From contig OZ017770.1 of assembly GCA_963969345.1 (NCBI GenBank), positions 2,861,246 to 2,925,245 on the forward strand: a stretch of DNA of 64,000 nt. The letters are read 5' to 3'. The notes under the pieces were generated by a model that did not search any database, was not told the DNA's origin, and worked only from the letters and a program-made list of their open reading frames with translations. The stretch comes from Turbatrix aceti. Its lineage: Eukaryota; Nematoda; Chromadorea; Rhabditida; Panagrolaimidae. Of this stretch, positions 7,576-41,906 are shown piece by piece. Within the stretch, counting starts at the first letter, position 1, and the number at the start of each line of letters is the position of its first letter. The translations under genes were made by a program, and so were the position numbers.

Positions 7576-10500
7576 TTAAAAAGTTTCAAATCGATGGACG
7601 AACGAAGGCGCATTTCGGACGCGGTTGGATTCCGTGCACGCTTCACGGATTTGTTTATTGATACCTCCAGGGCCGCAACTGAAGACGCCAATTTCGTCAA
7701 CCTGAAAAAAATGCATACATTATGCAAATTTTATGTCAATAGAAAAATGTCACTCACGTTTTGATGCCTGTTTTGGAGGTATTTGAGAAAGACTTCAAAG
7801 TTGGGACGTCCAAAGTGATTGGTAGCTCTCAGACCGGTGAACATACTTCGATTGCTGTTGTTTCCAAGACCGCGGAAATGCTTCTCGCAAATATACTGAA
7901 AATGACAGTTTTCAAAACAGGTTAATAAAATGACTCATAAATGACTCACAAGCATCGTAGTTCTCAGATCGAACTTGTGGAAGAATTGGGTGACAAAGAT
8001 GTGCGTCTCGATGATACCCTTGGGATCCATGTCTTCTGCTTTTTTGAGAACATCCACAAACCATTCAAAGTTTTTGTGAGTCGGACAAACCCAGATAAAG
8101 TATACCTAAAAGATCTTTGGTCAGCAAGCAGACCGGGAGAGAGGTCGGACGTACCTTGCGACACTTGACATCCGAGTGGGTGCCTGATTTAATTTCATTG
8201 GCCAGATCGGAGAGAGTCGATGCATATGGCGTGACGCCGATACCACCACCAACCATGACGCAAACTTCGTAGTTTTGCCAATCCTGGTTTCCGTCACCGA
8301 AGGGACCGTTCAGGTTGATGACTGGATATGGCAGGCAATGGGTTTGAGAATTCATAATCTCGTTTCTCAGCTTCCATGTCCAGGGTCCGACAGCCTAAAC
8401 AGATGAATATCATTTCTGCGATAAACGCAAAAAAACACGAACCTTGATATACAATTCCAAAATTTTAGCTTGGGGTGCTGAAGCGAGCGAGAAAGCGTGA
8501 TGTTCATTGAAGGTGCAGCTGAACGCAGGACACGACACTCTCACCCACTGACCGGAGCGGAATTTGAAGGAATGAGGTCGCTTAAACTGGATGTAGATAA
8601 TGTCAGAGGGCAAGATGGAAGCTTCCATAACTTGAAGTTGCTTGTACTGCTGTCGCATACCGATTATCTTGTCCAGAATGAATAAAATAATGGGAACAGT
8701 GACGTAGTACCAGAAAGAAGGCGCAGAAAGTAGCTTTGGCAGACCGTGAAGCACTGTCAAAGCGTACAGCAGAATGTTCAGCAAATGGGTGATGCGGAAA
8801 GCGTGATAAGCCCGACGAATGATGACTGGCATTGCGAAGACGTAGATGATGCTCATGACTACAACCAGAAGGATACCGGTCGTTCCCGTGATGGTTTGGA
8901 AGAACCAGTAGTTAATCGATGGCAAAAAGTTGGAGCTGAAGACAGCTTCCTGGAAAAGGCATGCCAATCCTTCCTGGCTCTGGGTAGCGACGTTGTAGAA
9001 GTTGATACAATGTCCGACGGTGTGAATTGTTGCCCAGAACCCAGCAGTCAGAGCGACGATTTTGTGGAACGTGATGGCTGAATCGAAGGGGATGTATTCT
9101 CCAATAGGGGTTTCTCGGAGGATGGTCATCAGATTTCGGCAAACAGTCAACAACACGACACCCATACAGAATGACAGTGAACCAGCAGCACCTCGAGTAA
9201 ATGAAATACCGAAGCCCATGACGCGACGGAGGTCTTGGTGCTCGGTCTCGAAACGATAGTCTGAAAATACGTCATACAGAAAAAAACAACTGAAATGAAT
9301 CTTACGCCAAAATCGTTCCAAAAAGATGATGAGGTTAATAGCGAAGAACATGAACAGCAGCGCGATGTGCTGACGGTAAGTTTCCAGGTAGGAGAGGATA
9401 AGTGATAGCCAATTGGCTTCAAAGCATTTTCCGTCTCCCGAGACAACGGCAAAACTGTTCAAACTCTCTGTTCTAAAAATTCGACAATGTTTGCAAAGCA
9501 TCCAGAGCAAAAAAACAAACTCTTCAAGATTGATTTTGAGTTGAGCCTTGCGGAAATGCACACCAATGGGGCGTCTCAGATCGTCAATCTGCCCAAAGAT
9601 CTTTTCAAAATCAGTGTAGCTAAGCGTATTTCTAGTAAGCGTGATACCAGCCCGGTTAAGCACCGATTCAATGACGTCTTCCTGTTCGCCTTGATCGATC
9701 TTGACACCAACAGCCATGTTGAGGGACTTGACAAATTCACAGAACTCTCGGCGCTCCACAACACCACATCCTTCTCGATCGCACATTTCAAAGACCAGTT
9801 GAAGCTTTTCACGTTGTCCACCCTGGGTGAACCGACGGAGTACATCGAGGAACTCCTGGAAGGAAACTTCATCCTTTTGTTGGTGTGCCATGCACGAGAA
9901 CATGCGTTCGACAAAGAGATCGTTCTCGCGCATGCCCATGGCATCCGCAAATTCTGCCTTGCTGAGGGTCATCTGCATGACTTCGTCCAGTGTTGTGTCC
10001 TGGAAGTCGTGGGGCGTTGCATCGCTCAGATTAGGATCGTTGAAGGCCTTGGAGTATGCTTCTCGGAAGAAATGATCCAGTTTGCGTTGGCGTTTGTCTC
10101 TTGTCTCCGCTGCTTCAAGTAAGACGTCATTTTCGGCTTCGATTTCTTTAAACAATTTTTGATGGACTGTTAGGCAGTTGGCGAAAGCACTGCGGAATTG
10201 CAACCAATGAGTTTCGGATTGGAGTCGAAGTACAACATCGTAGTGCCGGGGAACGGAAATGCAGACGAATGGACCGTGTACAGAACGACTACTTTTCTTC
10301 GTAACGGTAATGGTCACGACGTTGGCTTGTGAGACATCGATGCTGCGCAAGGGACTGCCACGGGGTTTGGAAACCTTCAGACAAGGCACATCTGCGTCGA
10401 GAGTTACGACCACTGAACGGCAGAACGTTTCATTTAGCCATTCGATTGCTGAAAGTTGCATTACGGTGAAAATTTATTGCAAATTAAAAAAAATAACCTG

Positions 10501-13500
10501 GGAAAGTAAATCTGTTTTTCTTCTTAGCAATGTCCGAAGCATCCGAAACCTGATCAGGATGCAGAATGGCATTAAATCGGAAGTTGCCGGACGGCCTTGG
10601 TGACGACTCGTACGCATCATACACCAGGCCCAGCCGCTTTCGTTTCTGAACCAGCAGATAGCCGATACCAATGCAAACTGAAAAAAATTTTGAACCCTTG
10701 CCAAAAAAATATTGAAACATACTCAGTGGAACGCAGCCAAGTGCAATGCACGAAAAAATGTAAGTGACTTCGTTGCCCGTAAAGTGATCAAATCTCATGA
10801 ATGGAATGCATGGCTCCAGACCGGTGGTATTGACCTGGAACGGCTGAGGGCACGGATCACCGTCCTTCCAGATGAATACATTTTCTTGAAGCTCGGAAGG
10901 ATCGATATTAGTCGTGTTGCTAATGACGTCACGCAGTTTGATACTTTTGATGTACGCAATGTCCTGGTTTGAAAAAATTCTGCAACATGTCCCTGTTGTT
11001 ATTTATGATCAAAGAAGTGTCGCATTTTGCAGGCTATCTACTCTCCCGCGTCGTAGTGTTTACGTTCCACTGGTTGCACTATTTTTTTTAACAATCAACC
11101 AGGAATGGGAAGTAAAAAAACCCGTGTCAAACTGTTGCTTACCCATTGAGCGGATTCTCAAACCAAAATCGATCGGAATCACGAAGACGAAGGAACTGAT
11201 CAATGATCACTTTGCTGAACAGTTCTCCGGGTCCATCGCCATTGGATTCAAGCATGCCACCGACGTAAGCATCAAGGATATCGATAGAATTGTTGTAGAG
11301 TGCTGATAGATTTGCCACAACCTAAATTGTTTACGTTATTATTTTTTTAAGGTACACAAAACGGACTTCTGGATATTGCTGGGTAAAGTGCACGTTGATA
11401 GCTGTAAAATCACGTGGTGGTAGGCCAAAGTGCTTTCTCAGCTCATTGTAAGGAGGAATGCCGTTGTCACGAGCTCTCATGATTGAAGTTGACACCACAT
11501 CCAGACGAGTAAAGTGCATGGGTCCAAAAATGAAATCTCGTAAATCCTCCACAACAACATTGTCTTCATTCTCTGCAATTTGGGAGGCCATGCCAAGGAT
11601 GATTTCATCGACTGTGTATTCTCCAACAACATCTTGGGCGTTCCACCAGTTCTGGCAAAGTCTCAAGGCCGGAAAACCGCCAACTTCGGTTCGGAATTCG
11701 CAGCTTTCATTAGAAATTGAGTTGCGTTTTCGCAGAAGCAGCGCCGGAGGTACTATTGTGTGAGGGAATCGGAACGCAGTTGTAGCAAAAGAGTGCGAAA
11801 TTCCAGGTGGAAGGTAGGGATTGTACGCTGAATACGGTGGAATAGCGTTATCGTCGTTAAGCAAAACCGGCAGGAATTCGTACATCACAATATTCTGGAG
11901 TGTGGCAATGACAAATCTCCTTGCGCCTTCGAATAATTCATCGTCTGTCCACGTGGGATGTTCATTCTGCAGGCGACGGGCTTGGAAATTGTGCCATCTG
12001 TAGAGCACCAAGCCAAAACTCAGCAATCCCGGGTTTTCGTTCACTCTTGAGTCCCCAAGTACTAAAATTTAGAAAGTTCACGTTTCGTAACCTAAAACTG
12101 TCTAGCTTACTGTACAGGCGTTCAGGATTCATCAACCTATGCACCTGAGGCGGTGCTGGATTGTTGAGGGGAATATTGAGTCTGTTGAACGGCGGATAAC
12201 CCACCCGGTCGCCTTCTTTGAGTGTACCGTTCTCCCAAGATCTCAGCTCTGCAACCCATGGTTCCTGAGTGCTGTAGATGAACGAAGCGTCGATCCAGCT
12301 GGTTCGATCATTTATCTGTTCTCGGGGAGAATTCAAGCCGTGACCTGTTGTCTTGTCGTATTTTGCTCTTGTGAATGGCATTTCTGTTTTTCCAGTGCAT
12401 TTTTTGTCAAAAATATCATCGCATTTTGGTACTGGAATTTTGACCATTTCCAGGGGACAACTATTCTGCGTAGAATGCATAATTTCGTAGGCAACAACCT
12501 GACCTGTAAGAAAAAAATTAAAATTTGTAGACTTAATTGCGAGTTATTTCGTTGCGTACTAAGAAAAAGGCCAATGGATACTTAAACGATCGTTTCTTTT
12601 TTCTTCTGTCGTTGAAGGACGGCAGACAGAGGTACAAAACGACGACGTAAGTTTCATTATGCACGCGTTCACCTCGTTTCAGGATATCCCTACGTGCAGA
12701 CAACAAAATAACCTTATAATGCTAATTACCCAAAAGCAAACACGTCTGGATTTTTGTCTGCAGCTCATACGCAGTTGCAACAAATTTGACCGGTTTGAAG
12801 ATCGCATTTTGTTTGAAATAAAGATTATCAAAACTCCTGTGGCTAACAAATAGCCGGTCGTCAAGCGAGTGTGAAAGAGAAAAAATGTGTCACAGCAAAA
12901 AAATGTCTTTGAACTTACTGAAAAATGCAATCATGGTAGTCAGGTTTCTTCCGCTGGGAATTCCCGAAGCTCCTTTGAATACCAAATCTGTGAAGAAAAA
13001 AAAGTTATTTTTATTTGTTTTCATTTCAAAGAACGAACCAGAAATTTTACGAGCTGATGGTAAGTAACCTGGAATTTGATATACGCCATCTTCGTAATTG
13101 CTTGGGGCATCTCTGTGAAGACGGCTACCCACACTTCCCCACTGGGGATTAGCCAAGTTGTTGTACCATCCATCGTAGCGTTGGAACTCATGCACCTGTT
13201 TGAGGGCTAAAATAAACTCGTTTTGATTATTTTGTTCTCTGTGGCGCAAGTTGACGAACTTTTTTTTTCTATAGCAATAGAGTAAATATTTTGCAGGGCG
13301 TTTAGGAATGCATCATGTACTCAAAAATTATTCTGCACTATGCCATGGGGGCTCTTGAAAAACCAAAGTTTAATCCTCAGTTGCAAACAAACGCATAAAA
13401 AACCATCTGAACCGAACATGCCTTCAGATAGGTAAGTAAAAAAGTAAACAGGTGTACAACCACACAGCGTATCGCTCAGTTCGCGCAAACTGTGAAAAAA

Positions 13501-15080
13501 AGTGGCCACTCGGCTGAGGAAAATTTTTGCCTGCGCGCGCACTCCTGTTTTTCTTGAAAGTGCACCCCAGATAATCGCAAAACAAAAATATTAAGATGCA
13601 AGTGTTTGTTTAGATTGATATTGTCATCGATTAAGCACATTCTTGCGAACATTTTGATGCCATTTTTGAAAAAAAATATTTATTGTGAGTCTCGCTGCAT
13701 ATTTCCAAAAACAGACATTTTTAAAAACGTTTGTGATAATTTCACAAAAAGTGTTCTGTACAGAGTTCTGAAATTTTTATGACAGTTGCATACGGTGTTG
13801 AAGAAGATATCCTGAAAATTTGGTGCAATTTCGCCTTGAAATATTAAAGTTAGCTGCTGATAACTGTTTTTCCTTGTAAAATTGCGCGCAAGCACACCCC
13901 TCTGTTCCTACTCATTGTACTCCAAAAACATTTTTTTGGTTACAAAAATGTTCGACCCCTTCACTATTGGAATATTAAAGCAATCGGAACTTCAATACAC
14001 AATTCGGGGGAGTGTCGTCGTCGAGTCGAGGAAGCACGGCGACGCGCACGAAGTTGCGGCAACAAGAAACGGGTGCCGCCGCCGATTGACCCTTCAATGA
14101 GTTGTTTGACCAGAAACAGAACAACTTCTTTGCCTTGCACATGATAGTCGTTCACTGCACACGATAGTTGTACTCAGGTACATCCCTGAAGGGTCAATCG
14201 GCGGCGGCACCCGTTTCTTGTTGCCGCAACTTCGTGCGCGTCGCCGTGCTTCCTCGACTCGACGACGACACTCGCCCGAATTGTGTATTGAAGTTCCGAT
14301 TGCTTTAATATTCCAATAGTGAAGGGGTCGAACATTTTTCCAACCAAAAAAATGTTTTTAGAGTACCCTGAGTAGGAACAGAGGGGTGTGCTTGCGCGCA
14401 CCTTTATAAGGAAAAACAGTTATCAGCAGCTAACTTTAAAATTCCAAGGCGAAATTGCACCAAATTTTCAGGATACCTTCTTCAACACCGTATGCATCTG
14501 TCATAAAAATTTCAGAACTCTGTACAGAACACTTTTTGTGAAATTATCACAAACGTTTTTAAAAATGTCTGTTTTTGGAAATATGCAGCGAGACTCACAA
14601 TAAATATTTTTTTTCAAAAATGGCATCAAAATGTTCGCAAGAATGTGCTTAATCGATGACAATATCAATCTAAACAAACACTTGCATCTTAATATTTTTG
14701 TTTTGCGATTATCTGGGGTGCACTTTCAAGAAAAACAAGGGTGCGCGCGCAGGCAAAAATTTTCCTCAGCCGAGTGGCCACTTTTTTTCACAGTTTGCGC
14801 GAACTAAAAATAGGCCTACCGATACGCTGTGCAACCATGGCGAGTATCAATCAAAAATTAAAAAAGAGCGTTTTGCTAAAAGCCAATGCCTTGAAACCTG
14901 TTTACTCTACGGGTTTACGGGTTTTTTTGTCCCAAAAAACAGAGTAAGCTGGGAAAGTCAAATCTGATTGATCTGAAACATACCATCTGTGGATGCGGTC
15001 AACAGTAACACACCACAGAGTGTCACCAGAACTTGCCAGAAACCGTCGTGTGTACTCCATCGACGGTGTCTGCTCTGCAT
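7576..15080 (-). CDS. bli-3: Dual oxidase (peroxidase + EF-hand + NADPH oxidase), BLI-3 type
   Basis: Fifteen exons in transcript order: 14984-15080, 13039-13206, 12919-12987, 12111-12503, 11358-12061, 11143-11321, 10723-10979, 10498-10677, 9521-10448, 9306-9472, 8443-9260, 8155-8394, 7950-8105, 7758-7895, 7576-7701. They sum to 4620 bp, giving 1539 aa, the usual Duox length. Exon 1 gives a signal peptide (hydrophobic core VTLCGVLLLTA). Then come the animal haem-peroxidase ectodomain starting FQRYDGWYNN, a first membrane segment, two partly degenerate EF-hand regions, and the six-helix NOX core with haem-ligand histidines (FHKIVAL, HTVGH, ITHLLN, VLHGLPK). The FAD motif HAFSLASAP, the NADPH motifs GGGIGVTPYAS and CGPGG, and the terminal RFETF follow. 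Dual oxidases make extracellular H2O2 from cytosolic NADPH; in C. elegans BLI-3 drives tyrosine cross-linking of cuticle and host defence. Residue pattern favours the nematode BLI-3 branch. Intron 1 (13207-14983) contains a foldback transposon. Confidence 0.96.
13463..14096. repeat. Left arm of foldback copy 1
   Basis: It is complementary to 14187-14831 nearly base for base. Examples are the GC-rich inner end (CGGGTGCCGCCGCCGATTGA against its reverse complement near 14192-14211) and the outer CACAGCGTATCG. Confidence 0.92.
14187..14831. repeat. Right arm of foldback copy 1
   Basis: It is the reverse complement of 13463-14096 with a few substitutions and a short extra segment (about 14812-14819) next to the terminal 12 bp. 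Confidence 0.92.
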
Positions 15081-26012: not shown

Positions 26013-27225
26013 TTCAGCGACTACTTGGATGGCATTTGGTTTCATTTGGCTCTAGGTCGATTCAGCGTAATGCATTTTTCAGCACAGTGTACTTTTCAGC
26101 GGAGCAAAATACAGCGCAACAGACATTTCAGCGGAGTAAAAATAAGCGGAAGACGAATTCAGCGTAGATTATTTCAGCGTAAGAAAAGTGAGCGTCATTG
26201 ATAACTGAGCGGATAATAATTGAGCGGGTGTTTTTTTCAGCGCTAATTTTGAGAACACAATTAGGGGGGGGGGCTGAGTGGTCTCGAAGCGAAATCTCAG
26301 ATTTTCGTTGCAAGAGTACCGCGTGCGCATTTTTATTTTTATTTTTCATTTTAGATTATAAGTTTCGTTGTAGGAGCATCAGAATTTGAATTTTTGACTT
26401 TTTGCACCGTTCGATCGTGTTTTCAGGTTTTTTATTTTTTTTAATCGTTTTTTTTTCGCTTTTTGTTGCTTTTTTTTCGGTGTTTCGTGATCAATAGGAA
26501 GGTGAAGACACGAGAAGGTACCTGCTTTGTACTTTTGAAATGTCATACACGGGTACTGAATCTGCCAAAAACTAAATAAAAGCTTAACACTTGCTGTAAA
26601 CCGGATAAAAAAAATATAAATCTGTGACCACGGATTGGATAAAATCTATATCCGTGCTTTCCATCGCGTTTCGAAGATAAACTTCGGAAACAAGCATTTT
26701 GGAATTTTGGGATAAAGGATGCATCCAGTTTAAACCAAGTCAGGATTTTATTGTGTTTTTAGTTGATTCGATATACGTGTACAATGTCCAAAAAGCACAA
26801 AGCAGGTGCAGTTCATTGTTTGAACCTTCCTATTAATCACTAAACACCGAAGAAAGCAACAAAAAGCGAAAAAAACGGTAAAAAAGATCGAAAAACGAGA
26901 AAACACGACCAAAAAGGGATGCAAACAGCCTAAAAAGTCAAAAAAACAAATTTTTGGTGTTCCCGCAACGAAAATTATTATCAAAAATCAAAAATACCAA
27001 AATTATCGCTTTGAGACCGCTCAGTGCGCACGCGCGCCCTTCCTGTTGATCACTAGTCCGCTGAATTGCTAACTCCGCTGAATTATCACTCCGCTGAAAA
27101 GTACAGTTGCGCATAGTTTGGGCCCGCTGAGAGTTGCTCCGCTGAATTTTCCTTCGCTGTGTTTTTCTTCGCTGAGTTTTGCACTACGCTGAGTTTTTCG
27201 TTCCGCTGAAAAATACTCCGCGCAA
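26013..27225. mobile_element. Degenerate foldback element with inverted TTCAGCG arrays
   Basis: The left end carries many TTCAGCG(G) motifs at roughly 15-20 bp spacing (26013, 26061, about 26094, 26127 and further variants to about 26240). The right end carries the reverse complement, CCGCTGAA, in a mirrored array (about 27058 to 27210). Between them the halves stay imperfectly complementary. CTGAGTGGTCTCGAAGCG near 26274 pairs with CGCTTTGAGACCGCTCAG near 27006. The sequence AATAGGAAGGT near 26493 pairs with ACCTTCCTATT near 26824. A T-rich segment (about 26390-26480) mirrors an A-rich one (about 26850-26960). No coding frame or clear target duplication is seen. It looks like an old non-autonomous foldback or MITE-like element with subterminal arrays; the family is unknown. 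Confidence 0.75.
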
Positions 27226-39305: not shown

Positions 39306-40531
39306 TTTTTTCACACAGAAAATTGTAGACAAAGGGAAAACATGGTTTTACGAGTTTTTTACTGATTTTTTTGGTTTCATAAACAAAGGACTGTTTTAAC
39401 CGGTTATCTTTTTTTTTAATTAATCGCCGATTAATTAGGTGTAAATTTTGAAAGGTCGGTCTCCGTATGTACCTTTGTCATGTGCGAGGGGGAGACGAGA
39501 CAACTCGTCTTCTTTCCAATGTGTGAAAAGATGCACGTCTTCCGGTTGTCATTCATGGCTTAACAATAAATAAATAAATAAAAATCCAGTTGCATTACTG
39601 CTTGGTGACGTCAGTATACTTTTAGGCTCGACGAACTGGCCATGTCCGCGGCATGACGGCATGATGTTCCTGGCATTCATCCGATCGCCGACTGATGGCT
39701 CAATGGCTTCCATCCATCCACTATTATTCATCTTTTTATTTTTCAAATTTGTCTATCTGGTGTTCGAAACAACGTAGTAGTTCAGTGTATACACTCTGAG
39801 TATTTTTCTTAGGGGTTTGGCACACAAAAATATATTTATTCCAACTATTATTGTCCAACTTTTCTGACAAAGATTGTATTCTTTTCTTCTTCTCATTTGG
39901 GAGCGTTTTGTAGACGTACACGAGACCTTCTAGTCGTCCTTATATTTTTTCATGTTTTCAAATTTTCCTATATTTGTATCTTATCATATTCCTAATTTGT
40001 AATCCCCGAATCGATTTCTTAAATAAAATTCTTGTTATTAAAAATTAACTTCACTTCCGTTTAACCGCAAATTTTGGGTCGAATTCTTTTTCAACTCAAT
40101 TTTGGCAGTCGTCTACTGTCTTGGAGCGTTTATTTACACATAAAGTAAGTTATAGTTCTATCTTTTTTAAAGCTTTTATCTTTGACATGTCTTGTTTTTT
40201 ACTGACATCGGTGAAAATAAAATGGAAAACAAAGCAAACTTCAAACTTGGAGTGAAAGGGAGGGAACGAAGCGATATTGTTCCTCGGGAGTAAGCATGCT
40301 TTAAGAAAGCACAAGCTTGTAGCAAGTGATGTAATGATTACCCCTCATTACCCCAAAATGTAAAAAGCTGTTAGACACCCCCGCGTGTACTTAAGCGGAT
40401 AACACAGAAGGTAAGAACAGGTTTATTGTGTTGGGAAGAAGTTTGAAAAATGAAGCATAGAATGAATGCGAAATAGTGTATTCAAGATGGATGCTGCTAC
40501 CAATCATCATAATTCACGATCAACGCCGCTG
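39306..40531. other. Spacer before foldback copy 2
   Basis: AT-rich, with clustered AATAAA-like sequences near 39567 and 40023 that may end the PITP transcript. No gene is recognised. Confidence 0.5.
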
Positions 40532-41906
40532 CACAGCGTATCGCTCAGTTCGCGCAAACTGTGAAAAAAAGTGGCCACTCGGCTGAGGAAAATTTTTGCC
40601 TGCGCGCGCACTCCTGTTTTTCTTGAAAGTGCACCCCAGATAATCGCAAAACAAAAATATTAAGATGCAAGTGTTTGTTTAGATTGATATTGTCATCGAT
40701 TAAGCACATTCTTGCGAACATTTTGATGCCATTTTTGAAAAAAAATATTTATTGTGAGTCTCGCTGCATGTTTCCAAAAACAGACATTTTTAAAAACGTT
40801 TGTGATAATTTCACAAAAAGTGTTCTGTACAGAGTTCTGAAATTTTTATGACAGTTGCATACGGTGTTGAAGAAGATATCCTGAAAATTTGGTGCAATTT
40901 CGCCTTGAAATATTAAAGTTAGCTGCTGATAACTGTTTTTCCTTGTAAAATTGCGCGCAAGCACACCCCTCTGTTCCTACTCATTGTACTCCAAAAACAT
41001 TTTTTTGGTTACAAAAATGTTCGACCCCTTCACTATTGGAATATTAAAGCAATCGGAACTTCAATACACAATTCGGGGGAGTGTCGTCGTCGAGTCGAGG
41101 AAGCACGGCGACGCGCACGAAGTTGCGGCAACAAGAAACGGGTGCCGCCGCCGATTGACCCTTCAATGAGTTGTTTGACCAGAAACAGAACAACTTCTTT
41201 GCCTTGCACATGATAGTCGTTCACTGCACACGATAGTTGTACTCAGGTACATCCCTGAAGGGTCAATCGGCGGCGGCACCCGTTTCTTGTTGCCGCAACT
41301 TCGTGCGCGTCGCCGTGCTTCCTCGACTCGACGACGACACTCGCCCGAATTGTGTATTGAAGTTCCGATTGCTTTAATATTCCAATAGTGAAGGGGTCGA
41401 ACATTTTTCCAACCAAAAAAATGTTTTTAGAGTACCCTGAGTAGGAACAGAGGGGTGTGCTTGCGCGCACCTTTATAAGGAAAAACAGTTATCAGCAGCT
41501 AACTTTAAAATTCCAAGGCGAAATTGCACCAAATTTTCAGGATACCTTCTTCAACACCGTATGCATCTGTCATAAAAATTTCAGAACTCTGTACAGAACA
41601 CTTTTTGTGAAATTATCACAAACGTTTTTAAAAATGTCTGTTTTTGGAAATATGCAGCGAGACTCACAATAAATATTTTTTTTCAAAAATGGCATCAAAA
41701 TGTTCGCAAGAATGTGCTTAATCGATGACAATATCAATCTAAACAAACACTTGCATCTTAATATTTTTGTTTTGCGATTATCTGGGGTGCACTTTCAAGA
41801 AAAACAAGGGTGCGCGCGCAGGCAAAAATTTTCCTCAGCCGAGTGGCCACTTTTTTTCACAGTTTGCGCGAACTAAAAATAGGCCTACCGATACGCTGTG
41901 CCGCTG
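40526..41906. mobile_element. Foldback DNA transposon, copy 2, with 6-bp target duplication
   Basis: The element proper is 40532-41900 (1369 bp, the same length as copy 1) in the same orientation. It is flanked by CCGCTG on both sides (40526-40531 and 41901-41906). Left arm 40532-41165, loop 41166-41255, right arm 41256-41900. By eye it is nearly identical to copy 1 at a constant offset of 27,069. The one substitution I noticed is G at 40770 where copy 1 has A at 13701. It lies in intergenic DNA. There is no transposase frame. Confidence 0.93.

Follow-up and report, generated by a model that had tools for sequence, protein, structure and literature searches.

A palindromic element of the nematode Turbatrix aceti, here called family A, is in all likelihood (probability about 0.85) a non-autonomous foldback derivative of a Chapaev-related DDE transposon of the CMC/Transib clade, moved with 6-bp staggered breaks. 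The evidence consists of sharply defined ends, duplications of 6 bp, two empty sites, transposase remnants in longer family-A copies and, in a related family B, a predicted unbroken gene with the catalytic signature of the clade.

The window, by which we mean the whole 64,000-nucleotide stretch of DNA that was analysed, is part of contig C6 in an assembly of 59.9 Mb and 28 contigs. It contains two copies of family A, whose parts are as follows.

13457..13462, unstranded: left target-site duplication of copy 1, CAACCA, read from the sequence and checked by script
13463..14096, + strand: left foldback arm of copy 1, 634 bp, with outer end CACAGCGTATCG
14097..14186, unstranded: loop of copy 1, 90 bp, which in another copy (L053) holds a nested family-D insertion
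14187..14831, - strand: right foldback arm of copy 1, 645 bp, with outer end CGATACGCTGTG
14832..14837, unstranded: right target-site duplication of copy 1, CAACCA
40526..40531, unstranded: left target-site duplication of copy 2, CCGCTG
40532..41900, + strand: copy 2 of family A, 1369 bp, differing from copy 1 at a single base
41901..41906, unstranded: right target-site duplication of copy 2, CCGCTG

Copy 1 (13463-14831, 1369 bp) is almost wholly one palindrome, and the arms, loop and CAACCA repeat described in the first-pass annotation were confirmed to the base. Its outer 12 bp, CACAGCGTATCG, form a perfect inverted match between the two ends, and the arms are identical at 604 of 619 gap-free aligned positions (15 mismatches). 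Folded as single-stranded DNA, the element gives essentially a single hairpin, at -792 kcal/mol, a value obtained without shuffled controls. As in the foldback class, long terminal inverted repeats make up most of the element; the arms built of internal tandem repeats that also characterize this class are not seen, the direct repeats listed all being short and two-copy. At 8410-13249 of the window, on the - strand, are exons of a gene resembling dual oxidases (An_peroxidase, Ferric_reduct, FAD_binding_8). Copy 1 starts about 200 bp past the outermost peroxidase frame that was detected, either within an intron or in the 5' region of that gene. A further inverted repeat, with arms of about 220 bp and 75% identity, lies at 26385-26942.

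Across the assembly, CACAGCGTATCG occurs 72 times, 36 times per strand, and the backwards pattern 0 and 1 times; a chance origin of the ends is excluded by this ratio of 72 to 1. Judged by the sequence beside them, 67 of these ends belong to family A, four (L044, L045, L046 and L048) have no arm similarity and were taken as chance matches, and one (L039) looks, by eye, like a diverged relative of the family. In terms of copies, the 67 ends amount to 28 elements that are exact at both ends and 11 that are exact at one. Nineteen of the two-ended copies measure 1368-1369 bp and nine fall between 1021 and 2899 bp; the longest (L054:347-3245, on C6) contains a nested copy, one family-A element having inserted into the arm of another with the 6-bp duplications of both left intact. 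At C5:8595881 the family-A loop is present, with the ends absent at the expected places. The 22-mer of the SL1 spliced leader has 145 exact occurrences in the assembly, its backwards pattern having none, which points to a nematode host, and SL1 copies form a regular array, about one every 1.5 kb, at C4:728148-753676.

Duplications were tested in 29 family-A copies, comprising the 28 with two exact ends and one with a mismatch in its left end. An exact 6-bp duplication flanks 27 of them, and in all 27 the match ends at 6 bp; mispaired flanks match over 6 bp in two of 812 combinations. A terminal-sequence search of the kind proposed in the first-pass annotation has thus returned many copies (at least 39), and the element ends exactly at CACAGCG, as that annotation had it, rather than beyond. 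The two copies without a duplication are C1:967346 and C1:8919826, the latter otherwise identical to the reference copy. In family B, 13 of 13 copies examined carry a 6-bp duplication, giving 40 of 42 for the two families together. Insertion targets favour C as the first base and G as the last: this C....G pattern is found in 9 of 27 family-A and 10 of 13 family-B duplications, against a window background of 4.6%.

Nested insertions provide two exact empty sites, paralogous rather than allelic, and both agree with the 6-bp target model. When the flanks of the inner family-A element of L054 are joined and one 6-bp copy is removed, the result is the uninterrupted arm of the same outer copy; it also matches arms in L028/L043, L049 and L058, and differs from the window copy at one of 74 bases. 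In L053, the flanks of a family-D element rejoin to give the uninterrupted loop of both window copies. Family D is a third foldback family, represented at L053:1048-1940 (C6) by an 893-bp element that sits in the loop of a family-A copy, with ends CACAGTGT..ACACTGTG and duplication CCTGAG; its end has eight matches genome-wide, both arms counted.

The age of family A was judged from 14 of the 19 copies of 1368-1369 bp, the remaining five having been examined at their ends only. Six of the 14, including copy 1 of the window and the reference copy, are identical, and the other eight differ from the reference at 1-9 sites, for 26 differences in total. The 15 arm mismatches are common to all 14 copies, barring 19 differences in five copies; when these 19 are removed, seven differences in 19,166 bases (0.04%) are left, and the family is therefore young. 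The first-pass annotation had taken the length and close matching of the arms as the sign of youth. That argument fails: mismatches shared among 14 copies must be older than the spread, and because they are common to the young copies, while both variants at these sites are partly present in older ones, arm similarity is no clock. The conclusion that this is a non-autonomous and recently mobile foldback element is nevertheless borne out by the duplications, exact ends, empty sites and copy-to-copy identity.

Nineteen of the 26 differences carry the base of the other arm, where 0.19 would be expected at random (the events are not independent), and at the 15 marker sites in 19 other loci the arms of older copies are mosaics of both versions. 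Mosaic arms of this kind, as if shuffled between arms or copies, are observed in L051, L052, L054, L058, L031 and others. It may be that arms or copies occasionally exchange sequence by gene conversion. We rejected the interpretation of all 19 differences as arm-to-arm transfers, since ten of them, in four copies (C2:1717114, C6:4003912, C6:10009657 and the element nested in L054), occur at the same sites in older copies as well; these ten could be variants of long standing or could have come from other copies by exchange. In C6:4003912 and the nested element of L054, the bases concerned are also isolated among unconverted sites, twice only one base away from one. The chances are accordingly only a little short of even that there has been no recent arm-to-arm conversion, with the other-arm bases being older variants, the outcome of inter-copy exchange or polishing errors in the palindrome. 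Such an account has difficulty with C2:1551089, the left arm of which has right-arm bases at nine consecutive sites (414-547) and left-arm bases at the outer six; this combination is absent from all other arms examined, and at 414-420 left-arm bases are already present in some of the older copies. Unless it reflects a polishing error, C2:1551089 would represent one clear transfer tract, from its own right arm or from that of another copy.

The most complete transposase comes from family B, of which three copies are relevant here.

L061, on C1: 3678 bp, with ends CACAGCATTCACTTTC and duplication GTGCCG
Copy on C5: 3264 bp, with duplication CGCTGG
Copy on C2: 9193 bp end to end, with duplication CCTGCG, one mismatch in the left end and an interruption within exon 3

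Assuming GT/AG splicing of two introns, the gene in L061 is predicted to encode an unbroken 720-aa protein from the third of four in-frame ATGs. The C5 copy is identical to L061 over exon 3 and has a shorter exon-1 frame (116 versus 369 aa). One arm of L061 carries an extra G-rich segment of about 407 bp (L061:3101-3507) that the C5 and C2 copies lack. Family B matches the Pfam model PF06918 (DUF1280) with 32.1 bits, the curated cut-off being 25, and the spliced protein scores 28.1 bits; the match is modest and spans only the region around the first catalytic D. The predicted protein contains, in order, the motifs GGDSGG, NGDLKF, CHLC, HLLRRH and TEQGLEA, corresponding to D360, D435, C454xxC457, H649x4H654 and E670 or E674 (the numbering depends on the start codon). 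Comparison with a large protein database returned no relative at E <= 0.001, exon 3 against solved structures gave a best value of only E >= 0.27, and Pfam gave no RAG or Transib match at E <= 1. Because database relatives are absent, the assignment of residues beyond the first D rests on motif reading and on conservation in diverged families of the same genome; a third family, on C4, retains GDLKF and CILC.

Family B also has short forms. Its end pattern, with at most one mismatch, occurs 130 times genome-wide (control, one), and among the matches listed (100 of 130) at least 38 pairs of ends lie 829-839 bp apart. Ten of these pairs were examined, all ten with 6-bp duplications, and the one short element examined over its whole length is palindromic, with 331-nt arms of 84% identity.

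Family A, too, has transposase pieces between or beside its ends, in L051, L052, L055 and L040. L051 holds, between family-A ends, an N-terminal frame of 239 aa, a piece up to the first catalytic motif GGDSGG and a C-terminal piece; the other three loci hold C-terminal pieces. Identity to the family-B transposase is about 44-49% for the C-terminal pieces; for the N-terminal piece it is 36-39% over the last part and 26% around the first D. Together the pieces retain GGDSGG, HVLEVH and SEQGIEA, the motifs of the first D, the H(4)H and the E. In tblastn searches of the loci examined, using the family-A pieces and the family-B transposase, transposase was found only in these four loci, in loci overlapping them and in L103, with L061 matched for family B and L029-L032 touched by a family-A query. 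Genome searches with three family-A pieces yielded no copy with all parts and no intact family-A transposase, and when exon 3 of family B was used as the genome query, the region of the second D was recovered from family-B copies and from two other, diverged places only. The first-pass annotation held that an autonomous partner must exist in the genome; what the searches recovered is pieces of a family-A transposase and a related family with a predicted unbroken gene. Longer family-A copies do carry transposase remnants, none of them intact.

Single-ended copies were considered as long autonomous elements and rejected, as 12 stretches of about 10 kb next to single ends contained no partner end (at most two mismatches) with a matching duplication. 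A laxer partner end in L057 (a 12-mer with five mismatches and an exact CTCGTG duplication) lacks arm similarity, lies among receptor-like frames and was attributed to chance. Open frames were listed for six of the 12 stretches (L039, L041, L042, L049, L050 and L057), and the sole Pfam match to the frames of L041 and L050 was a GTPase in L041.

The remnant-bearing loci L051, L052, L055, L029 and L031 have one arm that matches over about 416 bp and another that matches over about 610-634 bp, and the foldback has the longer arm version on both sides. To judge from these alignments, the foldback resembles the 5' side of the transposase duplicated in inverted orientation. The simplest origin would be a repair event in which a copy with a transposase gene had its 3'-side half exchanged for a second, inverted 5' side.

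In the mechanism that we propose, a transposase of the same lineage would have recognized ends of the form CACAGC..GCTGTG, mobilized the element and inserted it at breaks staggered by 6 bp, preferably where the target begins with C and ends with G. The chemistry would be cut-and-paste, and the family-B gene is presumed to be expressed and spliced as predicted. That the family-B enzyme itself mobilized family A, in place of an enzyme of its own, is unlikely, even though one family-B copy (C1) has a predicted unbroken gene to which a second (C5) is identical over exon 3, the two families share CACAGC ends, 6-bp duplications and the C....G preference, and no intact family-A gene was found. The ends of the two families agree only over approximately CACAGC, family A has distinct transposase remnants of its own, and the unequal frequency of C....G targets (Fisher p = 0.017) hints at different enzymes. 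The likelier mover of family A is its own transposase, now lost, unassembled or unsampled.

The placement of these elements draws on published descriptions. EnSpm, Mirage, Chapaev, Transib and RAG1 have C(2)C and H(3-4)H motifs between the second D and the E and form a clade with mostly CA..TG ends and 2-5 bp duplications (PMC12730594); DUF1280 denotes Chapaev transposases, in one clade with RAG1 (PMC3985635); and Chapaev elements generally show 3-4 bp duplications and CAC..GTG ends (PMC4079192). By motif reading, the predicted family-B protein has the full D, D, C(2)C, H(4)H, E signature, its DUF1280 score is above the cut-off, and the ends are of the CA..TG type in all three families (CACAGC..GCTGTG in A and B, CACAGTG..CACTGTG in D). 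The 6-bp duplications lie outside both of these ranges. Because the ends fit and the duplication length does not, we would place the elements in the CMC/Transib clade as a Chapaev-related 6-bp variant, not as Chapaev proper; a superfamily that the first-pass annotation left unclear is thereby resolved through the DUF1280 match and catalytic signature of family B. Apart from the duplication length, the points that weigh against our main reading are the modest and localized DUF1280 match without database relatives, the failure to find an intact family-A transposase and the two of 29 copies without a duplication.

It is very improbable, and already contradicted, that the duplication is of the ordinary 4-bp Chapaev type, with an element one base longer at each end (G..C) inserted into C-NNNN-G targets. 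The 19 of 40 duplications that are CNNNNG, and the empty site CCTGAG, do read identically both ways, but the other 21 are not C....G and yet their outer bases still match across the element, and the empty site CGCGCA, also not C....G, holds one full 6-bp copy. Segmental duplication as the source of the window pair, suggested by copies 27 kb apart that differ at one of 1369 bases, is contradicted to the point of being negligible: their flanks differ, their different duplications (CAACCA and CCGCTG) make them independent insertions, and family-A copies are spread over five contigs of 11.4-12.7 Mb.

Several known systems resemble the family in part. Chapaev and Chapaev3 (CMC) share the DUF1280-type transposase and 5'-CAC..GTG-3' ends, but have 3-4 bp duplications (TWA in Chapaev3) instead of 6 bp, and no cysteine cluster like the Chapa zinc finger (described in PMC4411706) was seen by eye N-terminal to the core of the family-B protein. 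Transib and RAG1 (CMCT) likewise have C(2)C and H(4)H between the second D and the E. The Transib duplication is 5 bp, versus 6 bp here, and the family-D end CACAGTG is identical to the V(D)J heptamer. Tc4 of Caenorhabditis elegans is, like family A, a foldback of a nematode; its arms are long and almost perfectly matched and only a few of its copies bear a transposase, but it has a 3-bp TNA duplication and a Tc1/mariner-related enzyme. Tm1, a Mutator/Foldback element of root-knot nematodes with both non-autonomous and transposase-bearing forms (PMC3169594), differs in its 9-bp duplications, arms mostly of 13-15 bp tandem repeats and Mutator-like enzyme. IS3EU/GingerRoot (PMC10045372) has 6-bp duplications, TA..TA or occasionally TG..CA ends and an integrase-related transposase; it was set aside because the ends here are CACAG..CTGTG. 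Dada, with its DxxH motif, terminal zinc fingers and 6-7 bp duplications (PMC3706591), and hAT6, with 6-bp duplications, were set aside solely because the match is to DUF1280. Neither a Chapaev relative with 6-bp duplications nor a foldback form of Chapaev is among the literature matches listed; nematode repeats of this kind may be present in Repbase or Dfam.

We suggest tentatively, with the odds somewhat against it, that these elements form a lineage of their own within the RAG-related clade, next to Chapaev and Transib. It would be marked by 6-bp duplications with a C....G preference, RSS-like CACAG(C/T) ends, palindromic forms of at least three families (A, B and D) and the exchange of sequence by arms, of which there is one clear nine-site tract. 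How long a duplication is depends on the distance between the two strand-transfer sites, and a 6-bp enzyme related to CMC/Transib would therefore widen the range known for the clade from which RAG1 arose. Young foldback copies, whose arms differ from each other at 15 marker positions, could show how long inverted repeats exchange sequence and, if the separate lineage is real, these marked arms would naturally record how kilobase inverted repeats are repaired in the germ line of a nematode.
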